A model generated the notes under the pieces. It worked only from the letters and a program-made list of their open reading frames with translations. It had not been told where the DNA came from and did no database searches. The translations under genes were made by a program, and so were the position numbers. Shown piece after piece: positions 5,479 to 19,741 of a DNA stretch of 20,387 nt. The DNA is from a virus. Within the stretch, counting starts at the first letter, position 1. Every line of letters begins with the position of its first letter. The DNA lies in the IMG/VR virus record IMGVR_UViG_3300006802_000783, positions 1 through 20,387 of that record. One strand, given 5' to 3'.

Positions 5479-7043
5479 CAATAGACATTCAACCAAACCT
5501 CATACAACCAGCCTATGGAAACTTGGTCTATCAGTTCTCCTCAACGGCACAAACTACCTACTACAAATACAGATATGCGGTAGATGTGTGGATTGGAGGG
5601 GCTCAACAGACAAGATTGAAAATAACCCCACAGAACACTTCTTGGGGTCAGGTGGATATATCACCTATCGTGAAGAACTATCTCACTTCCAGACCCATCA
5701 ATAAGGGTTGTACGGGGACAACAGAGAACCCTATCACCCAAGCAGAATGGGGAGCAGTAGATACAGACATCCAATTCTACTATATCGTGGTAGGTGAGGA
5801 ATACTCAACAACACCAGAAGGTGCTGTGGTTATCTATGAACCATCTACTCAAAGTGATTTGAGGTATGTGTATAACGGTGTGAAAAATTGGAACAAGGGA
5901 AAGCAGTTTGACTTCACCCCTTTCTATCTATCCAACTATTCTCTACCAACAGAGTTTCCAGCAAATACACACAAGTTCTTGACAGACCAACCGAGAGTAC
6001 AATACATCTCTGATAGTGATTATGCTACCCTCACTGGTTTCAACATGCTGACCCCAAACATCTTGACGGGGACAACCTATGATACCTACTCACAGAGGGT
6101 ATATTCAGCGTTGTTTGAGTTCTTTGATGTGGATGGGGCATTCATATCATCGGCAAGGACATACAACACCCTTGATAACTGTGGTTTATGGGTAGATTGT
6201 CAAAACTTCTCTGCTTCCACATTCAATGCGGATTCCCATATGTTTGAGTATGTTGGAACAGGAACACAGAACCTTGAAGAACATGGAATCACCCTTCCTA
6301 CCAACTGGCACTACTATCGTGTTTCATTTGAAGGCACAAGTTACGAATGTAACAAGTGGAGGGTGAGAAACAACAGTGAAGAAGCGTTGTTGGAAGTGAA
6401 TTATGCGGATTGTGAAACCAATCAACTACAAACCATCTACATCGGTATTGGGTCATCACAAGACATCTGTGTGAGAGGGTCGTTTGCGATTGCCGAATAT
6501 GGAACAAAGACACCTCTTGGTTGGTGTGATAGTTGGGGTGGTGAAACAGAGTGTTGGACAACAAGAAGAATCTCTGAATATTTCTATTACTACAAAGACC
6601 CTGAATGTGGGCCTGGTAATCAGAGAGTGATGTGGTTGAACTCATTTGGAACATGGGAATACTTCACCTTCAAATACAGACACAATGTGGGTTATGATAT
6701 CCAAAGAGAATCTCTACAAAGAGAACCTGACAACTATCAAGCAGGTTGGGATGTGGATAAATACTATGGGTGGAACAACACCAACAGAGTATGGAAACAG
6801 AACATCTCAAAGACGGGTCTATTATACTCTGGTAGAATCTCAAAATCATACTTGGTATGGTTATCAGATGAACTATTGAAATCCCCATCAGTGTATCTCA
6901 TAGATTCTGACGGAGACATCCAACCGATTGTATTGACCAACACAGAGGTGGTTGAACCAAACTTCCAAAGAAATGACGGACAATACGAAATGGTATTGGA
7001 ATACAGAGGGGGATATAACGAAACAAGACAAGACAACGAATAA
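5475..7043 (+). CDS. Large tail-associated structural protein, unknown role
   Basis: A 522-residue, strand-rich and Trp/Tyr/Cys-containing protein. The N-terminal domain (residues 1-90) contains PAYGNLVYQFSST, YRYAVDVWIGG and VDISPIVKNYLTSRP. That pattern of a Y-x-Y-x-x-D-V strand followed by DIS-I-KNYL matches a family I recall from Bacteroidota and uncultured phages, where it sits beside the tape measure and baseplate-like genes. The rest has many short strands and several cysteines, with aromatic stretches such as CGPGNQRVMWLNSFGTWEYF; its C-terminal quarter includes SYLVWLSDELLKSPSVYLI. No signal peptide or membrane segment is evident. The following gene begins in its stop codon (TAATG). 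A distal tail or tail-tip part is inferred from context only. Confidence 0.5.
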   Translation: MTIDIQPNLIQPAYGNLVYQFSSTAQTTYYKYRYAVDVWIGGAQQTRLKITPQNTSWGQVDISPIVKNYLTSRPINKGCTGTTENPITQAEWGAVDTDIQFYYIVVGEEYSTTPEGAVVIYEPSTQSDLRYVYNGVKNWNKGKQFDFTPFYLSNYSLPTEFPANTHKFLTDQPRVQYISDSDYATLTGFNMLTPNILTGTTYDTYSQRVYSALFEFFDVDGAFISSARTYNTLDNCGLWVDCQNFSASTFNADSHMFEYVGTGTQNLEEHGITLPTNWHYYRVSFEGTSYECNKWRVRNNSEEALLEVNYADCETNQLQTIYIGIGSSQDICVRGSFAIAEYGTKTPLGWCDSWGGETECWTTRRISEYFYYYKDPECGPGNQRVMWLNSFGTWEYFTFKYRHNVGYDIQRESLQREPDNYQAGWDVDKYYGWNNTNRVWKQNISKTGLLYSGRISKSYLVWLSDELLKSPSVYLIDSDGDIQPIVLTNTEVVEPNFQRNDGQYEMVLEYRGGYNETRQDNE

Positions 7044-9586
7044 TGGTTGAGTTATTGGCGATTGACAAAAATGGAAACTACTCATACTTGGATTTGACCA
7101 GTGAGGTTTCCATTCCATTGAACCTCTCTATTGAGGACATTGAAGACATCACAGCAAGAAAGGGTGGATACACAAAGACCTTCAACATTCCTGGTTCAGC
7201 AAGGAACGATAGGTTCTTCCAATCTGCCTTCAATGTGAATGCGACAGATTTTGACGCTACCCTACAATCCTCTTGTGTGATTCAATACAGGGGGACAGAT
7301 GTATTCAATGGGACAATGAGATTGAACAAAATCACCAATACCAACGGAGTTATCAACTATGAGGTATATCTTGTGGAGACCCTCACACCTTTCACCAGTA
7401 CATTGGAACAAATCACCGTATGTGATTTGGATTTCTCTGATATTCAACACGAGATTGACTATGACACGATTGTATCCACTTGGGACTACACAGGAGGGAC
7501 ATACGACTCTTATTCGGGTCTGACGGGGAAAGTACTATACCCACTTGCTGAAACGGGTTATGACGAAGGTGGTACATTTGGTACATTCAACTTCACCTCC
7601 ACTGGTTTCACCTCAGCAACGGGAAACCCTATCCAAACCACACAGTTCAAGCCGTGGGTGAATGTGAAATACTTGGTGGATAAGATATTTGACAGAGCAG
7701 GATTCACCTATGAGAGTGGATTTTTCAATACCCAATATTTCCAATCCATCTTCATGCTGGCAGGTCAATCACCAACAATGGGGGCATCTCTATTGGAGGA
7801 CAGACCTGACAACCAAAACTTCTTTGAGGTATATCAGGCTATCCTTCCATATGTCTATGATTATCAAGAATTGGGTGATTGGAAGTACATTATGTTTGCC
7901 GATAAGAACTATGATTATTTGGAGAGTTATACCACTTCAACCTACCCTATTGTTCCTGGTCAAGCGGGGGCAAAAAACTATCTCACAGTACCTATTGGTG
8001 GTTTCTATCAGTTCAACTTTGACATCACATATTATGCTACATATTATGTTAGCCCATCATACATAGATTTCTCATTGAGAGATATTGACACGGGTACTCA
8101 ACTTGGTATCTATACCGCATACCCTGTGACATCACAAGAGTTTGACCTCAACCTATACTTCAATGTGACCCTGACAAAAGGTCAAAGGGTGGCATTATTC
8201 GTGAAAGAGAATCAACCATCGTTCAATGATGTGGCATTCAAGAATGGTATCTTCCGTTTATACTCATCACCTGAACTGACAACCACAGGAGCCACAATGA
8301 ACTGGGTAGATAACCTCCCATGTTCATTGAATACGGTGGAGTTTTTCAGAAATATTATCAACTATTTCAATCTTGTCCTTGTTCCAACGGGTGAGAGGTC
8401 GTTCTTGATTGAGACCTATAACGACTATCTATCATCGTTGAGTGGAAATACCTATGATTGGTCACAAAAACTCAATCTGAATGATACATATACCATTGAA
8501 CCCCTTGATTTCTCATTACAGAGACAACTGAACCTCACCTTCCAAGACGATGAAACGGTATTGGGGAAATACTACATTGACAACTACGATAACATCTTTG
8601 GTTCAAAGTTATACACCGCAACAAACTCTCTATTGAGTGGGAAACAGGACATTGAGTTTATCTTCAACTCACTACCTACCAACTCGGTGAATAACACCCC
8701 TGATTGTGATTTCGTTGTCCCTCAACTATTCGTTCAAGAGAGAGACACTAATAATGTCCTACAATCAAGACCAACATCGTCAGACCCACGATTGGGATTC
8801 TTCTGTGGTATGAAAGAACCTGTCTTATCGGGGTCACCAGTATCATGGTATCTACAAAGTGGAACAACGGAGGTCTTATGGGACAAATACCCTGTCATCA
8901 ACCACCTATCTCTATTGACATACACCGCCAACACCCAAGTGAGTGATTTGAACTTCACATCAAACTGGGATTTCTTTATGACCCATTCTGATTTGATTGG
9001 ATATACCCCAAATACCGCATGGAATGATTTCTACCGAAACCCTATTGAGTTGTTATACTCCACAGAAGCGAGGTTATTCACGGGGTATTTCTACCTCACA
9101 CCAGAGGACATGAAGAATATCAACTTCAATGACAGAATATACTTCCTCAATGCGGAATGGAGATTGTTGAATATACAAGATGGGGATTTGACAGAACCGA
9201 GTATTGTGAAATGTCAGTTATTGAAAGTACCATATAGAATACCAGCATCTACACCAATCCCACCAAACTACGAGGAACAAGCAAAACCTGTGGTGACCCC
9301 TACACCAACACCTACACCAGTACCATCGTATTCACACACATTGCCGTGGAGTTTCACGGTGAATTGTCCTACTTGTGATTTGACGGGTAGTAATCTCACA
9401 TTCTATTCACCAGATGCTGTATTGGTGAATGGTTCATTGGTGTATAGTGATTCAACCCTCAACTCACCACTTCCATCGGGTAGATACTTGAAGGACAACC
9501 CAGCAGGATACATTTGGGAAATTGTCACAAATGGAGCAGCATTATCAGAACTATCACTCTTCTGTTCTATCGGTGGAGGGTGTTAA
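7043..9586 (+). CDS. Baseplate/tail-tip-like protein with C-terminal PT linker and Cys domain
   Basis: This 847-residue protein opens with strands and an IPLNLSIEDIEDI segment followed by KGGYTKTFNIPGSARNDRFF (residues 40-59). This IPL-N-I-DI then K-G-Y-KT-IPG pattern marks a large tail or baseplate-type protein that I recall from Bacteroidota phages. The middle (about 60-745) is beta-rich, with aromatic repeats, and reads as several tandem strand domains. Around residues 750-763 a [12 protein letters not shown] linker connects to a compact 80-residue tail domain with Cys pairs (NCPTCD and FCSIGGGC). The same kind of Pro/Thr linker recurs in later genes, so the last domain may be a moveable, exposed add-on. 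Placement just before the tape measure fits the tail tip. Precise function is not known. Confidence 0.6.
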   Translation: MVELLAIDKNGNYSYLDLTSEVSIPLNLSIEDIEDITARKGGYTKTFNIPGSARNDRFFQSAFNVNATDFDATLQSSCVIQYRGTDVFNGTMRLNKITNTNGVINYEVYLVETLTPFTSTLEQITVCDLDFSDIQHEIDYDTIVSTWDYTGGTYDSYSGLTGKVLYPLAETGYDEGGTFGTFNFTSTGFTSATGNPIQTTQFKPWVNVKYLVDKIFDRAGFTYESGFFNTQYFQSIFMLAGQSPTMGASLLEDRPDNQNFFEVYQAILPYVYDYQELGDWKYIMFADKNYDYLESYTTSTYPIVPGQAGAKNYLTVPIGGFYQFNFDITYYATYYVSPSYIDFSLRDIDTGTQLGIYTAYPVTSQEFDLNLYFNVTLTKGQRVALFVKENQPSFNDVAFKNGIFRLYSSPELTTTGATMNWVDNLPCSLNTVEFFRNIINYFNLVLVPTGERSFLIETYNDYLSSLSGNTYDWSQKLNLNDTYTIEPLDFSLQRQLNLTFQDDETVLGKYYIDNYDNIFGSKLYTATNSLLSGKQDIEFIFNSLPTNSVNNTPDCDFVVPQLFVQERDTNNVLQSRPTSSDPRLGFFCGMKEPVLSGSPVSWYLQSGTTEVLWDKYPVINHLSLLTYTANTQVSDLNFTSNWDFFMTHSDLIGYTPNTAWNDFYRNPIELLYSTEARLFTGYFYLTPEDMKNINFNDRIYFLNAEWRLLNIQDGDLTEPSIVKCQLLKVPYRIPASTPIPPNYEEQAKPVVTPTPTPTPVPSYSHTLPWSFTVNCPTCDLTGSNLTFYSPDAVLVNGSLVYSDSTLNSPLPSGRYLKDNPAGYIWEIVTNGAALSELSLFCSIGGGC

Positions 9587-9611: not shown

Positions 9612-12527
9612 ATGGCACGAAGTATCGCATTAGGAATCAATATCCAAATCAACGGAGCACAACAGACCGTCAAGTCAGTTGATGAGTTGAAGCAGGCAAT
9701 CTCTACCCTTGAAAATGAAATCCAAACGGCTGAGTTTGGGTCAGAGGAGTTCAAGAGATTGAGTGCTGACCTCGCAAAACTAAAAGCAGGATTCAGAGAC
9801 ATCAACAAAGAGATTGAGGGTGCGGATAGAGAACAGGCATTGGGTGCGTTCGCAGCATCTGTCAATGGTGTCACTGGTGCGTTCTTGGTAGCCACCTCAG
9901 CCGTTCAAGCATTTGGTGTTGAAGGAAAGAATGCCGAAGAGTTGGCAAAGTTTCAAGCCAGAGCATTGGCATTGGTCAATGTCGCATTGGGTGTTCGTCA
10001 AATCTTGGAAGCGAAGGTCAAGTTTGAACAAATCCAAAGAAATGTTGTAGAGAAGGCATCTCTGATTGGAACACGATTATTGACCGCAGCACAGGCAGCA
10101 TACACCGCAGTGGTCGCAGGAACAACGGGGGCTCTCAAAGCATTGAGAATCGCCATAGCCTCCACAGGTGTTGGTCTATTGGTTGTTGGTCTTGCGTCTC
10201 TTATTTCCAAACTCACATCAGCAAAAGAGGAGACAACAGAGTTGGCAGAAGAGACAAAAACCCTTGCTGAGTTTGAGAGTGAGGCAGCACAGAATGCGGG
10301 TGTTGAAGTATTGAAAATACAGAACCTTGCCAAGGTTGTCAAAAACGCACAAGTACCATTGGAGGATAGAGTTGGGGCATACAAGGAACTACAAAAACTT
10401 GTCCCTGAACTTGCTGGTTATACCCTTGAAGAGGCTGAGAATCTTGGGATATTGAATCAAGCCATAAACGACCAAATCAAACTTATTGAACTCCGTGCGA
10501 GGGTCACCGCATTGGAGGGTTTCTTGGTTGAACAAGAAAAAGCAAGAATCGCTGCTGAACAAGCAGAAGCGGCTCAAAGAAAACAAACACAGGCTCTGAT
10601 TGACTTCAATCTTATCAATCAAGAGGCGACAAGAATCATGAACGGTATGGGTGCTGCCACATTTGAGCAAGCACAAGAGATGGCAAAAGCCCTACTCATC
10701 AGAAATGGTACTATCAAACAACAAGAAGATGAAAATACTGTTGCCAAGGAACTATTAGACGCAAAAACACAACTCTCAACACTTGAAGGTCAAATCACAA
10801 CAAGAATCGGTGGAAGAACCAAAGCACAGAAGGACGCTAATGATGCTGACAAAGAAGCGATTGAACTTGAAAAAGAGAGATTGAGATTATTCAACGAATC
10901 TATCAAAGCGTTGGGTCAATTCAACCTTGAAGGTCAAGTATCGGCACAAGTATTAGACCAAGCAAATGAACTCATAGAAAGACAGAATAACTTATTGAAT
11001 GAGAGAAAATCAATCCTTCAAGAACAGGTTGTTCAATCAGAAGAGGTTGCTGACCAATTCAAGAGATTGGTAGGTGGTATATTATCACCCGAAGAAGGTA
11101 TTATCAAGTTTGACGATGTATTTGAAAGTATTTTCAGAAATGTTGAGAAGGCTGGTGGGGACGCATTGACCCAATATCAAAATCTACAAAAACAAGTTGA
11201 AGAGTTTGGTGGGGTATTGGCTGTGAGAGAGAAGATTGGAGAAAAATCATTACAGATTCTCCAAGATTATTTTTCAACAAACATTGAACTTCAACAGTTA
11301 TTGGGTGAATACAATCAGGCAGCAGTGACGGCTGGTAAAGAGGTTGTCAATCTCAATATTGATTTGAGCAAACTCGTCAAAGAAATAGGGGATATCAGAG
11401 AAGAAGGTGAAAAATCACTTGAAAGAGAATCGGTGACCCAAGAGAAAATCTATAACTTGATTGCCAAGACCCTATTCCCTCAAACTCAAATTGAAAAACT
11501 TTCAGAAGACCAAAAGAACACATTGGATTCCATCACCAAATCACTGATTCAACAATCGGGGTTATATGCGGGTATCGCTGATGTGAATGACGAGTTGATA
11601 GAGAAGACAGCACAGGTTCAAGAAAATATCACAGCACAAGGTCAAAAGTTGGACGAAACCGCATTCAAAAACCTTCGTCAGTTTATTATTGACAATGCGG
11701 AGAGTATTGGGGCTATCAAGGAGACATTCGGTACTTTGAGTGTTGAATCATCAAACCTGACCCAAGAACAGATTGACAATATCAATAAACTGATTGAGGA
11801 TGTTGAGTTGAATAACTTGATAACAAGAATAGACCAAGTGGCACAGGCGGTTGTACAGATATTTGGTAATGTATCGGGACAACTTTCATCTATTGTATCT
11901 CAACAGAACTCACTATTGTTGGAACAACTCGCATATCAAGAGGAGATGACCCTTGCGACCATCGGTAATGCCACAGAGGAGGCAAGACAAGAACAAGAGA
12001 GAGCACAGAAAGAGTTTGCGGAACAGAGATTCAATCTTGAAAAAAGAGCAAGGATTTCTGAACTACAATTCGCTCTGGCTGATTCCATCGCAAACGGAGC
12101 CGCAGCATACATCTCAGCATTGACGGTGGCACCACCTGCGGGTTATGTTCTGGCTAATATATCGGCATTGTTAGCCGCAGCACAAATCGCAACCATCAGA
12201 AGTCAGATTGGATTCACAAAATCAAAACAGTTCATCGCAAGACGAGGTGGTTTGATTGGTGGAGCATCCCATGAGATGGGTGGTATGACCCTGAATGCTG
12301 AGGGTGGAGAGTTCCTTGTCAATAGACAAGCAGTATCTCAATTTGGAGACCTCTTATCACAAATCAACACATCAACGGGGGGAAGACCTTTGGCGATGGA
12401 CGATAGTAGAATCGTGGAGGAGATTAGAAGACAGAATCAAAGACCTATCAAGACCTATGTACTTGACCAAGACATTCAAGACACAAGGAAGATAAATGCG
12501 AGGTTGGAACAGATATCTCGTCTTTGA
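9612..12527 (+). CDS. Tail tape measure protein
   Basis: The 971-residue protein is the length ruler of the tail and probably takes part in DNA ejection. The N-terminus has helix-forming, coiled-coil heptads (ELKQAISTLENEI, LSADLAKLKAGF) followed by an Ala-rich region and a hydrophobic segment at about 172-199 (LRIAIASTGVGLLVVGLAS). The long middle (about 200-820) is Glu/Gln/Lys-rich with many heptads, and a second hydrophobic, Ala-rich stretch occurs near 823-868. The C-terminus contains a glycine-rich RRGGLIGG/MGGMTLNAEGGEFLVN segment, which is typical of tape measure ends. By the rule of roughly 0.15 nm per residue, the tail would be around 145 nm, a rough inference. It starts after a 25-base A/T-rich leader. 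Confidence 0.93.
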   Translation: MARSIALGINIQINGAQQTVKSVDELKQAISTLENEIQTAEFGSEEFKRLSADLAKLKAGFRDINKEIEGADREQALGAFAASVNGVTGAFLVATSAVQAFGVEGKNAEELAKFQARALALVNVALGVRQILEAKVKFEQIQRNVVEKASLIGTRLLTAAQAAYTAVVAGTTGALKALRIAIASTGVGLLVVGLASLISKLTSAKEETTELAEETKTLAEFESEAAQNAGVEVLKIQNLAKVVKNAQVPLEDRVGAYKELQKLVPELAGYTLEEAENLGILNQAINDQIKLIELRARVTALEGFLVEQEKARIAAEQAEAAQRKQTQALIDFNLINQEATRIMNGMGAATFEQAQEMAKALLIRNGTIKQQEDENTVAKELLDAKTQLSTLEGQITTRIGGRTKAQKDANDADKEAIELEKERLRLFNESIKALGQFNLEGQVSAQVLDQANELIERQNNLLNERKSILQEQVVQSEEVADQFKRLVGGILSPEEGIIKFDDVFESIFRNVEKAGGDALTQYQNLQKQVEEFGGVLAVREKIGEKSLQILQDYFSTNIELQQLLGEYNQAAVTAGKEVVNLNIDLSKLVKEIGDIREEGEKSLERESVTQEKIYNLIAKTLFPQTQIEKLSEDQKNTLDSITKSLIQQSGLYAGIADVNDELIEKTAQVQENITAQGQKLDETAFKNLRQFIIDNAESIGAIKETFGTLSVESSNLTQEQIDNINKLIEDVELNNLITRIDQVAQAVVQIFGNVSGQLSSIVSQQNSLLLEQLAYQEEMTLATIGNATEEARQEQERAQKEFAEQRFNLEKRARISELQFALADSIANGAAAYISALTVAPPAGYVLANISALLAAAQIATIRSQIGFTKSKQFIARRGGLIGGASHEMGGMTLNAEGGEFLVNRQAVSQFGDLLSQINTSTGGRPLAMDDSRIVEEIRRQNQRPIKTYVLDQDIQDTRKINARLEQISRL

Positions 12528-12564: not shown

Positions 12565-14751
12565 ATGAAGATAGTTGAATTATACATTCAAGAGGAAGAT
12601 GAATCAGGTGTAGATGCTCTATCCCTTGTGGCTGACCCAGCATCACATGTGAATTGGTTGGTCTTCAAAAATGAAGAGGAGTGTAATGGGACATGTGCCT
12701 TGAAACACAATATAAAGACCAAAGGAGAGAGTTTCAACTCATATATCCAAGCAGGGGTTCAGTTCCGTGTTGAAGACATCACAGAGCAAGAATACCACAA
12801 GTTCTATTCCCCATTCTCAACAGCAAACCAACCCTCAAAAGAAGACAATGACAGAGAGTTGGTGAGATACTACTATGCGATTGACCCTGAAAGGGGTGCT
12901 ATCCTCAAAAGAGATTCAAGAAGTATCTGTCGTGATTTTGTATTTGCTGGTTTGGTGTATAGAGACGAGGATTTGACGGATATGTCAAGACAACTATCAA
13001 GTATAGATGCGGGTAGAACACTTATCCCAAGAACACAGGGGTATGATGTATCGTTGAAGGAATGGAAGGCTGGAAAACAGTGTAATCATATCTTCCGTAG
13101 GTTGATTTTCACAGTACCAGAAGGTATGACAAAAGAGGAGTTTGCTTCAACCCTCCCAAGTACCACATCACAAGCATTCGGTATCGCCAGTAGAAACGAA
13201 CTACAAGATGGACTACCAGGGTCTATCTCAAACAGAACGGGGTATCTACGAGGTATTCCTGGTTTCTCATCACAGGACAACCCTATTGGATTCATAGAGG
13301 GTCTTATCATCTATCCTACATTTGATTCCATGTTGAAATCAGAGATGGTTTTGGGATGGTCGTTCATTGAACTTGACGGTGTTCAAGGGTGGATTTCAGG
13401 AGTTGCTTCTGACGACTACTTTGAGACAGAGGGTGTGAAGATTATCAAAACAGGTATTGTCAAGGAAGAGTTCTACAATGATTATCCACAAGGTGCCAAG
13501 GAAGCGGCTGAGATGGGTATCAAAAGAAACGAGGAGAATAACAACAAATGTGCCACACAGGTCGGGAAGGTCAGAGCACAACAAATCGCAAAGGGAGAAA
13601 ATCTCTCATTGGAAACTTTGAAGAGAACCTACTCCTATCTGTCAAGAGCAGAGGACGGGTTCGTCAAAGCACAGAACGCAAAGGAATATGATTCGTGTGC
13701 GTATATCAGTTATCTACTATGGGGTGGATTGGATATGTTGAGATGGGTGGAGAACAAACTTGACCAGTTGGAGTATGACTTCATTGGAAACACAGGTTGT
13801 ATTGGGACTCTTATCACAGAAGGTGTTGGTGAGTTGGACGCCATCGCAAGATGTACAAAAAACCCACAAGCACATTTGACCCTACCACACTATGACCCAA
13901 CAGACAACAACGAGTATTCTGATATTGACGAGGACAAGGAAATGGTAGATGGTATTATTGAACTGATTATTCAGATTCAAGACCTTGAAGAGAGAAAGAG
14001 AGTTGCTGAGAAAGCGATTGAAACACTCACAGAAGAGGGGACAGCATTTGACATCAATGATTTCATTCAGAGATTGGGATTGAAGGGAGATATGGAGTTT
14101 CAACACCAATCCTTCAAGGACGACCTCAAATATGAAATCACCACAGTGGTTATGGAGCCTGACAGATATATCGTCAGAAGAGACCCATACACATCTGAAA
14201 TATATTATGTAGTATTCTCAAAGGAGACCATCAAGTTGATGGCTCAAAAGTTCTTCAAACAGAACAAACACAAAAACTTCAATGTGGAACATTCTGATTT
14301 GACCTTGAACGGAGGGTATGTCTATGAATCATGGATTGTGAATAACCCTGATACAGATAAAGCCAAAGAGTTGGGATTCGTTGTGAATCCTGGTACTTGG
14401 ATGGTCTCCCTGAAATGGGACGACAAAGAAGAGTTTGAGAAATATGTGTTGTCTCAAAAGACATTCGGTATTTCTCTTGAAGGGGCGTTTCTGTCAAGAG
14501 ATTTCAACAAGGCTGAGTACTCATACTCGGTGGTTGGAGATATGGACGGAGAACCCATCTATTCAACGGAGGAGGAGGCTTTGACAAGAGCAGAGGAACT
14601 CGGTTGTAGTGGAACTCATAAACACGAGGACGGGTGGATGGCATGTTCATCTCACGAAATCCTCATCGGTGCGAAAACCTCTTTGTATAAAGATGAATAT
14701 GAGATATTTATTGAAGAGGTGAAAGACATCATAAATAATCAACAAAAATAA
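12565..14751 (+). CDS. Multidomain capsid protein with XkdF-like head maturation protease domain
   Basis: A 728-residue protein, much longer than a lone maturation protease. Residues 1-180 contain a short N-terminal strand block (SGVDALSLVADPASHVNWLVF) typical of XkdF-like genes and a segment with RSICRDFVFAGLVYRDED and WKAGKQCNHIFRRL. Residues 304-402 form a helical region (NEENNNKCATQVGKVRAQQ, LSRAED, YISYLLWGGLDMLRW) that I recall from other Bacteroidota phage head proteins. Residues 524-650 match XkdF/Peptidase_S78_2-type proteases, with His576 (NVEHSD) and Ser637 (FGISLEGAF) as candidate catalytic residues. The end (680-697) has a Cys/His cluster: C681, H685, H687, C694, H697. Location just upstream of the scaffold and major capsid genes supports prohead processing. 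Confidence 0.75.
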   Translation: MKIVELYIQEEDESGVDALSLVADPASHVNWLVFKNEEECNGTCALKHNIKTKGESFNSYIQAGVQFRVEDITEQEYHKFYSPFSTANQPSKEDNDRELVRYYYAIDPERGAILKRDSRSICRDFVFAGLVYRDEDLTDMSRQLSSIDAGRTLIPRTQGYDVSLKEWKAGKQCNHIFRRLIFTVPEGMTKEEFASTLPSTTSQAFGIASRNELQDGLPGSISNRTGYLRGIPGFSSQDNPIGFIEGLIIYPTFDSMLKSEMVLGWSFIELDGVQGWISGVASDDYFETEGVKIIKTGIVKEEFYNDYPQGAKEAAEMGIKRNEENNNKCATQVGKVRAQQIAKGENLSLETLKRTYSYLSRAEDGFVKAQNAKEYDSCAYISYLLWGGLDMLRWVENKLDQLEYDFIGNTGCIGTLITEGVGELDAIARCTKNPQAHLTLPHYDPTDNNEYSDIDEDKEMVDGIIELIIQIQDLEERKRVAEKAIETLTEEGTAFDINDFIQRLGLKGDMEFQHQSFKDDLKYEITTVVMEPDRYIVRRDPYTSEIYYVVFSKETIKLMAQKFFKQNKHKNFNVEHSDLTLNGGYVYESWIVNNPDTDKAKELGFVVNPGTWMVSLKWDDKEEFEKYVLSQKTFGISLEGAFLSRDFNKAEYSYSVVGDMDGEPIYSTEEEALTRAEELGCSGTHKHEDGWMACSSHEILIGAKTSLYKDEYEIFIEEVKDIINNQQK

Positions 14752-14759
14752 ACTTCAAG

Positions 14760-15311
14760 ATGACAAAACAAGAAGTATTTGCGGCTATCAAGAACTTGGT
14801 TGCTCCAACAACAGTTGAAGTAAAGTTTGAGAGAGTAGCATTGGAGGGTGGTGAAGTATTCATCACAAACCAAACAGAGGCAGAACTCACTATCGGTGAT
14901 ACAGTATATGTTGAAACAGAAGCAGGATTTGAAACCGCTCCATCTGGTACCCACAGATTGGAAGATGGTAGAGAAATCGTGTTGGACGAATCATCTGTTA
15001 TTGTAGAAATCCGTGAGGAGGTTGAAGAAGTTGTTGAAGAGGTAGTTGAAGATGTTGTAGAAGAGGAAGTTGTTGAGGCTTCTGTTGATACAGCAAAGAT
15101 TGACGAACTCAAAACAGCAATCCATGATTTGTTGTTGGCATTTGAAAGCCACTCAAATGATATGGACAAAAGATTGAAGTCGTTGGAAGCCGACTATAAT
15201 GCTTTCAAAAAAGAGGCAGAGTATTCTCCTATCAAGAAGGATAACTCTATAAAAACAACTTTCAGCAAACTTGACGGTAGAATCAACACTATCAAGGAGT
15301 TGAAAAAATAA
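14760..15311 (+). CDS. Capsid scaffold-like protein
   Basis: The 183-residue protein is placed directly between the protease and the major capsid gene, the usual position for a scaffold. The N-terminal half is a small strand-rich domain (VEVKFERVALEGGEVFI and LEDGREIVLDESSVIVEI), a form seen in scaffolds of this phage type. Residues 84-106 are an acidic Glu/Val repeat (EEVEEVVEEVVEDVVEEEVV), then residues 112-153 have heptads consistent with a coiled coil, followed by a basic end. Scaffolds commonly have acidic, helical, oligomerising bodies with a basic end that contacts the capsid protein. It starts nine bases after the upstream stop. A head-decoration role remains possible. Confidence 0.65.
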   Translation: MTKQEVFAAIKNLVAPTTVEVKFERVALEGGEVFITNQTEAELTIGDTVYVETEAGFETAPSGTHRLEDGREIVLDESSVIVEIREEVEEVVEEVVEDVVEEEVVEASVDTAKIDELKTAIHDLLLAFESHSNDMDKRLKSLEADYNAFKKEAEYSPIKKDNSIKTTFSKLDGRINTIKELKK

Positions 15312-18366: not shown

Positions 18367-18590
18367 TGCTCAGAAGAGATGAAAAGATTTGGGTTGATGG
18401 TACAGAGTATGAAAGATACATTGTCAAAGAGTTGGTCTTGGATTTGGAAACATCCCATATCTCAATGGTTGTTCATTACTTTGATGAAGACGAAAACAGA
18501 ACTTATATCAAGAAGCACACTTTTGTGGAAGAGGGTGAAAACATTGATGTGGTTGAAATGATAAAAAAAACACATAGAATACACAAATGA
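18366..18590 (+). CDS. Small hypothetical protein (74 aa)
   Basis: The 74-residue product has a central [18 protein letters not shown] stretch, [19 protein letters not shown], and a helical end. It reads as a compact beta-rich domain (alternating hydrophobics and charged residues) and has no recognisable motif, signal or membrane segment. It shares a base with the upstream stop and ends in an ATGA overlap with the PT-stalk gene, so it is translated in the adhesin operon. The codons near the end include an A run (18573-18580). Role unknown. Confidence 0.6.
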
Positions 18591-19741
18591 GTGATATTAG
18601 ATACATCAATCTACAAGTGACTCCACAAAAGTGGGAGAATCAATATTTCGGGGACTTTGAAGCCCCTATTTCGTTATATCCTGCTCCGTCAAGACCGACC
18701 CCTACACCAACAAAAACGCCTACACCTACACCGACACCATCGGTGACTCCATCTATCACTCCAACGGGAACACCAGCACCAACAAAAACTCCTACACCAA
18801 CACCATCTATCTCTGTTTCACCGACCCCAACTATAACGGCATCGGTGACACCTTCACCAACACAACAAACACCTACACCGACTCCAACTATCAGTGTGAC
18901 TCCGTCTATCACTCCATCGGTGACACCTACATACACCCCGACACAAACGGCTACGGTGACCCCAACGGCATCGGTGACTCCAACACATACACCAACACCG
19001 ACCCCGTCATCAACTCCATTACCGAACCCATACTATCTATTGGCTGAGAACTATGATGAGTTATTGACAGAGGGTGGAGATTATATTGACATCAGAGGTG
19101 ATAAGGTATTCAGTAATCACCTCCAATCTTTCAGTAGTGAAACACAAAGCACAACATACAGTTATAGTGGTTTCTCTTCGGGTAGTGAAGGTTTGATTGT
19201 TGTCGGTTTCGGTGGTGAAATGGTCAATAATTCAACTGATGTATTGAGTGTGAGTATCAACGGTAGTCCAGCAGCCCTCGCAGTGAAGAGTGTTGGTGCT
19301 GGCTCACCAGGTAATAAAAATATTGTCTCTATGTTCTATCAAAGAGTCAATAGTGATGTTCCATTGAGTATTGAGGTCACCTATGATGATATTATGGAAG
19401 AACATATGTGTAGTGTGTATAGATTGGATTATGTGACATTTGATGACCCATATCTCACCGATACAGATGTGAAATTATCGGGGGCTATATCACAACTCAA
19501 CTTTGGAACAATAAGTGATTACAGCACAGGTATTCTATTCCATTTCTGGGATTCTGGTGATAGTACAACTGCTTGGTTTGATGCCACAGAACAATTCACA
19601 TTCAGAAAACAGACATTTGGTTGGACATGGACAACTGCTGAAAATGAGTTTGGAACGGGTGTTCTTTCATGGGCACCATATACACAAAACTCAAATGGTG
19701 GATTGGGATACAAGACACTCATCGGAGCGATATGGAAATAA
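18587..19741 (+). CDS. PT-repeat stalk fibre-like protein
   Basis: The 384-residue protein has three parts. Residues 1-35 are a short globular or anchoring segment ([18 protein letters not shown]). Residues 36-147 are a Pro/Thr/Ser stalk of [14 protein letters not shown] and ISVTPS type repeats, likely extended and, if exported or surface-exposed, a candidate for modification. Residues 148-384 form a strand-rich, aromatic C-terminal domain ([51 protein letters not shown]) of jelly-roll appearance. Such stalk plus head organisation suggests a virion surface fibre or adhesin. Similar PT stalks occur in uncultured marine phage proteins, from memory. Overlaps the preceding gene by four bases. Confidence 0.6.
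18695..19029 (+). repeat. Degenerate Pro/Thr-coding tandem repeat tract
   Basis: About 335 bases encode imperfect TP/SVTPSIT repeats. Short DNA units such as cctacacc, cggtgac and atctatcactcc recur with spacing divisible by three. Thr and Pro codons vary freely, so the amino acid pattern is conserved more than the DNA. Expansion or contraction by slippage is plausible. The corresponding complement gives a long Val/Gly frame, which is an artefact. Confidence 0.85.

Follow-up and report, generated by a model that had tools for sequence, protein, structure and literature searches.

Why should the head maturation protease of a marine phage run to 728 residues? The question arises in the window analysed here, a 20,387-nt stretch of viral DNA, where one plus-strand ORF encodes such a protein (Table 1). 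A preliminary description had read it as a fusion of an XkdF-like protease with extra domains, and that reading holds. The protein is a mosaic: the XkdF leader is followed by the C-terminal domain of a portal and by a helical module, here called M, then comes the protease core, and a DUF3721 module lies after the protease. The ORF is single and intact, with an ATG start, and no rival long frame lies opposite it on the minus strand. Its length, unusual for a protease, might point to a chimeric assembly or a gene-calling error that joined separate genes. This explanation is refuted because seven separately assembled viral contigs also encode the composite protein (five full-length, two as fragments at contig edges; 55-76% identity to the window protein in the best segment) and four further XkdF loci have the order leader-portal domain-M-protease; we regard its probability as negligible.

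Table 1. Features of the composite protease gene and the genes that follow it (window positions).
Feature	Position	Strand	Basis
Composite head maturation protease, 728 aa	12565..14751	+	ORF calling; relatives
XkdF N-terminal leader, res 1-35	12565..12669	+	BLASTP to L283 protease res 1-27; leader profile
Portal C-terminal-type domain, res 85-182	12817..13110	+	phrog_33693 profile, alignment, BLASTP
Lineage-specific segment, res 186-300	13120..13464	+	Matches confined to close relatives
Module M, res 301-404, five helices, Cys pair C329/C378	13465..13776	+	Profile, model, alignments
Linker and helical segment, res 405-518	13777..14118	+	Hva1_TUDOR-like insertion here in L006/L007/L008
XkdF-type serine protease domain, PF14550, res 519-645	14119..14499	+	Pfam; alignment
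DUF3721 module, res 660-707, C681/H685/H687/C694/H697	14542..14685	+	Pfam, alignments, model
Next gene, 183 aa, scaffold-like	14760..15311	+	Matches C-terminal part of phrog_24921
Putative major capsid protein, 303 aa	15337..16248	+	Gene order and weak match to phrog_11320

The protease core matches PF14550 at residues 519-640 with an E value of 1.3e-8 and 35.4 bits, against a curated cut-off of 24. H576 (nt 14290) and S637 (nt 14473), at the positions originally proposed, are invariant across six aligned XkdF proteases, including those of Nonlabens phage P12024S and locus L283. By profile and by these conserved residues the window protein is classed as an XkdF-type head protease, with proteolysis of head proteins as its predicted activity. 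In ordinary XkdF proteins the leader is contiguous with the protease, whereas in the window protein about 480 residues intervene. The known counterpart, P12024S gp01 (XkdF/Peptidase_S78_2), shares the leader, the protease domain and the two conserved residues (His and Ser) and also precedes scaffold-like and capsid genes, but lacks the insert, M and DUF3721. In P12024S scaffold and protease form one fusion protein and the portal retains its C-terminal domain; the window lineage differs in both respects. The former fusion is captured in phrog_24921: the N-terminal part of this entry is the protease, and the C-terminal part resembles the 183-aa product of the window. Scaffold-like parts had also been suspected within the composite protein itself, and we found no sign of a scaffold role there. 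A jumbo-phage survey, in the part available, gives XkdF as the head protease of one phage group and does not mention these modules (PMC7824862).

Upstream, the protease gene is preceded by a tape-measure gene (9612-12527). Downstream, the assignment of the 303-aa product as major capsid protein is putative, since its match to phrog_11320, an entry without a named function, is weak. Elsewhere in the window, a 439-aa DNA methyltransferase-like ORF with a DPPYG motif (1255-2574) lies immediately 5' of the terminase gene, and two putative tail or surface proteins (18587-19741 and 7043-9586) contain Thr-Pro rich repeats (TPTPTPT...).

The first of the inserted domains, residues 85-182, has the conserved pattern C...Y-R-x-E-D...W-x-x-G-x-x-C-x-H. 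It matches portal columns 423-508 of phrog_33693 in a profile search (E 1.6e-5) and the L283 portal by BLASTP (E 6e-6), and it can be aligned with the P12024S and L283 portals; in the P12024S-type portal the matched part is the C-terminal end. By these matches, what had been described as an unrelated-looking N-terminal domain is the portal family's C-terminal domain, moved into the protease gene. An assignment of the same residues to MuF (Phage_Mu_F) was rejected (hhalign probability 0.06%).

The domain takes three positions. It lies at the portal C terminus in P12024S, L283 and six other genomes. The protease contains it in G309, G310 and G314 (portals of 368, 364 and 405 aa) and in three further contig fragments that have no portal. 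In G318 (L292) and G325 (L295) it forms a separate short ORF beside portals of 420 and 418 aa, a state intermediate between fusion and relocation. Of the window relatives, G309 and G310 are the two whose contigs include a portal; this portal matches columns 7-330 only, and columns 423/438-508 are found inside the protease ORF. No genome among those checked has the domain in two places; it occurs once per genome. The window (1-20387) has recognisable terminase, tail, protease and putative capsid genes but no recognisable portal gene; in relatives the portal lies far from the protease (at 1826-2761 of 28.7 kb in G309), and from these relatives we infer that the window phage has a short portal of its own.

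Residues 186-300 match nothing beyond close relatives of the window protein; the idea that residues 235-295 are a decayed DUF3721 copy was rejected, as comparison showed no DUF3721 likeness. The next segment, M, has no match in Pfam, NCBIfam or PDB sequences, and PDB sequence searches with the whole 728-aa protein, M, DUF3721 and the protease gave no convincing match. Structure prediction, as proposed for the central helical block, gave five helices with high confidence (AlphaFold, 102-sequence alignment; mean pLDDT 96.4, pTM 0.88). A Foldseek search of this model against the PDB returned nothing at E <= 0.001 (best E 2.8) and no known DNA-binding fold, while many viral proteins matched at TM 0.7-0.9 under the names portal, XkdF, prohead protease, ParB/Sulfiredoxin and Hva1 TUDOR protein. 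The M family is unnamed so far and has no relative of solved structure. Its Cys pair is both present in 55 sequences and both absent in 210, and three apparent exceptions also have a Cys at the first site, outside the search pattern. The pair recurs in haloviruses and Bacteroidetes-type phages (related sequences counted separately), and the two cysteines may form a contact. The window copy departs from family-typical residues (RM to RT, SRHE to SRAE, WGGD to WGGL) and is not basic (pI 6.5, against about 10 in most M), so activity inferred from other copies may not hold for it.

M is widespread both as a virion module and as a free-standing bacterial protein. Viral contigs contain at least 592 M stretches, and in 75 of the best 80 M lies within an ORF of at least 245 aa. 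A search with M alone gave 78 viral proteins, in which the partners were Phage_capsid (20), S78 (16), portal families (14 and 11), DUF5824 (13), Hva1_TUDOR (8), DUF3721 (5) and MuF (3). Where orientation could be assigned, M was N-terminal to S78 or capsid in 34/34 and C-terminal to the portal in 16/16. These fusions to portals, proteases and capsid proteins belong to viruses of bacteria and of archaea; annotated isolates include HRTV-28 (portal-M-MuF) and CRP-406 (M-S78-capsid). In bacterial genomes 267 stretches matched, mainly in Rhizobiales, plus Hyphomonadaceae and candidate phyla. Among 80 of the 267, M was nearly always free-standing, though one Burkholderiaceae MAG has it in a 1548-aa frame; stand-alone cellular M measures about 105-130 aa, against the long M-bearing proteins of viruses. 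One gene of Vibrio phage K459 (VPHK459_0024, L017:3983-4759), just 5' of the capsid genes, is annotated 'DNA methyltransferase' but reads like M with a protease-like domain behind it; phrog_1530, likewise named 'DNA methyltransferase', matches the protease region of the window.

In bacteria M has a conserved neighbour. A Hva1_TUDOR gene lies no more than 3 kb from M in 45/80 bacterial loci, on the same strand in 45/45 and usually directly upstream, with a spacing within about 150 nt in 41 of them. In a separate, independent search with Pfam, 4/10 M-bearing genomes had Hva1, each time immediately adjoining M. The pair is conserved in Rhizobiaceae, Bosea, Henriciella and Ponticaulis (among loci L027-L105; for example L041:2774-3291, L047:2750-3288 and L031:2755-3291), and it is apparently undescribed so far. 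The two being neighbours in cells, the pair would therefore work together outside virions. In the window relatives L006, L007 and L008, the Hva1-like domain follows M in the same polypeptide. One lead concerns DUF3140 (PF11338), whose motifs are co-linear with those of M (VG...R...L...RH...WG-D) and which, like M, has an adjoining Hva1 gene, in 1/9 loci found; hhalign between the two, with a shallow DUF3140 alignment, was not significant (E 0.011-0.05, probability 1-4%). At L270:1139-1806 a Hva1_TUDOR gene overlaps or abuts a DUF3140 gene, which occupies the place of M in other bacteria.

M and Hva1_TUDOR could bind nucleic acid, serving to condense the packaged genome or to hold it close to the portal and shell. 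The median pI is basic for M (10.1 for cellular and 9.9 for viral copies) and for Hva1 (9.7 and 9.0), every fusion point would face packaged DNA, and gp148 of jumbo phage PaBG, which has a free-standing M in its replication region, is annotated 'putative DNA-binding protein'. Against this stand the pI of the window M (6.5), the acidity of DUF3721 (pI 4.6), the failure of M to match any known DNA-binding fold, and the solved fungal Hva1, which in the part of its report available is discussed as NADPH-related, not DNA-related (PMC5008624). We consider this reading improbable.

The wider spread of these additions was surveyed in 80 XkdF loci retrieved by protease sequence alone, with controls removed. 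About 50 of the proteases carry M and 17 carry DUF3721. The architectures comprise leader-protease only (about 30), leader-protease-M (27) and M with DUF3721 (16); four are of the leader-portal domain-M-protease type, and a few others remain. DUF3721 is confined to M-bearing proteins (17/50 versus 0/30, P 1e-4, with related sequences counted separately). In L283 an M that is 51% identical to the window copy sits at the C terminus of an ordinary protease. Because the survey and L283 show the same modules, the window protein is a reordered version of a common set, part of a recurrent pattern. The search of PF14550 architectures suggested by the preliminary description thus found M, DUF3721 and the portal domain recurring; the protein is indeed long for a protease, but additions to this family are common.

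The C-terminal Cys/His cluster had been proposed as a separate small module, and it is one: residues 666-697 match DUF3721 (PF12518) with an E value of 3.9e-10 and 39.7 bits, against a curated cut-off of 27. All five cluster residues lie where they had been placed, and the earlier domain borders were nearly right throughout (revised in Table 1). The C-x3-H ... C-x2-H core of the family is formed by C681, H685, C694 and H697; the loop is shorter in the window copy (EDG--W versus EDGxxxYMP). Across 73 distinct viral copies the four core residues never vary and the H687 position is kept in 68/73, but both search patterns cover the C/H/C/H residues, so that the invariance is partly a selection effect and conservation is overstated. 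In the copy of halovirus HGTV-1, found by another route, both Cys are lost together, which fits a shared site. AlphaFold gave a hairpin-helix-hairpin-helix with the four core residues around the second hairpin, at a pLDDT of about 84-91 over the core and 76 overall. The module may bind metal, and zinc is a plausible ligand for the window cluster. Foldseek against the PDB returned nothing at E <= 0.001; a designed repeat protein at E 0.0011 was dismissed, as it matched a short stretch only, with no passing domain. A tblastn search of phage records with a 46-aa query found no match, and none was found in 299 Pseudomonadota genomes, in a search without any positive-control match. Two tandem copies precede M in large proteins, mostly portal fusions (L165, L166, L209, L218 and L267). 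Our literature search found no mention of DUF3721 or of the M motif; among the papers searched, only three name the other modules: a catalogue of a secretome, an algal-virus genome and a paper on the Pfam database.

Viruses of both bacteria and archaea have M, DUF3721 and Hva1_TUDOR as small recurring modules on their portal, protease and capsid proteins, and the order of the modules varies. The 'prohead protease' gp11 of HGTV-1 also has M and a DUF3721-like segment in one polypeptide, but with a different domain order, a protease of another family (a weak DUF2213 match) and a DUF3721 copy without the two Cys that the window copy keeps.

What do the additions do? Assembly brings proteases, portals and capsid precursors together inside the procapsid, the N-terminal regions of HK97-type proteins and the C termini of portals point inwards, and prohead proteases cut themselves and other head proteins. 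Because the assembly proteins sit inside the procapsid with the fusion ends inward, the added domains should be interior: they would face the head interior when N-terminal to HK97-type proteases and capsid proteins or C-terminal to portals, and in both positions on XkdF proteases. Most likely the add-ons lie inside the head, carried in by the assembly protein, and the mosaic anatomy and interior location, taken jointly, are highly probable. At maturation the protease would cut the polyprotein within its linkers; the portal-type domain would remain near the portal, and M and DUF3721 would stay behind in the head; as cargo they could act there on the packaged DNA or accompany it into the host, like polyvalent or MuF-linked effectors. 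Taken whole, this account of a mosaic head-assembly protein with interior modules freed by cleavage and left as cargo is evenly balanced in our judgement.

Alternatively, M and DUF3721 could be assembly propeptides, acting as chaperones or core-targeting elements that help the protease, portal and capsid precursor to fold or draw them into the procapsid, and then cleaved and lost. The fusion partners of M are exactly the proteins that enter the procapsid. Propeptides of T4 and SPN3US have targeting and chaperonin-recruiting roles, and a propeptide that a prohead protease has released is as a rule expected to leave the head (PMC10052503), which would argue for assembly roles and against cargo. 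However, about 30/80 XkdF proteases manage without M, and the free-standing M of bacteria, paired with Hva1_TUDOR, and that of PaBG imply a function outside head assembly. The propeptide reading is a serious minority possibility. A stand-alone bacterial M with a conserved partner argues for an activity of its own and so speaks for cargo; that the modules are interior cargo rather than discarded propeptide seems to us just short of an even proposition.

The closest published concept is that of polyvalent proteins and MuF- or portal-fused effectors (Iyer et al. 2017, PMC5512222), which are likewise multidomain virion proteins with mobile modules on head components, encoded in late regions. By anatomy and gene order the window protein has at least two domains in one virion-linked late-region protein, and its add-ons could be packaged and delivered into the host in polyvalent style. 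It differs in that its portal-type domain is unlike MuF and its add-ons include no recognised toxin or enzyme domain; the terms XkdF, Tudor and HVA1 were not found in the portion of that paper's text available (PMC5512222).

Several consequences follow for these viruses. The portal domain shifts among the portal gene, a gene of its own and the protease gene, so that its role becomes testable. M is present in hundreds of viral contigs and in bacterial genomes, linked to Hva1_TUDOR by cellular pairing and by virion fusion. A wider proposal, tentative and rather doubtful, is that M is an undescribed new-fold family forming a bacterial two-gene unit with Hva1_TUDOR, and that viruses have repeatedly captured M, Hva1_TUDOR and DUF3721 into assembly proteins as a toolkit of delivered interior cargo; if true, loading would run through portal, protease and capsid genes, and delivery would occur with the genome. 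Annotation of such proteins names only 'portal', 'protease', 'capsid' or 'DNA methyltransferase', and if the modules are kept in mature heads, phages would carry a protein load hidden by current annotation.
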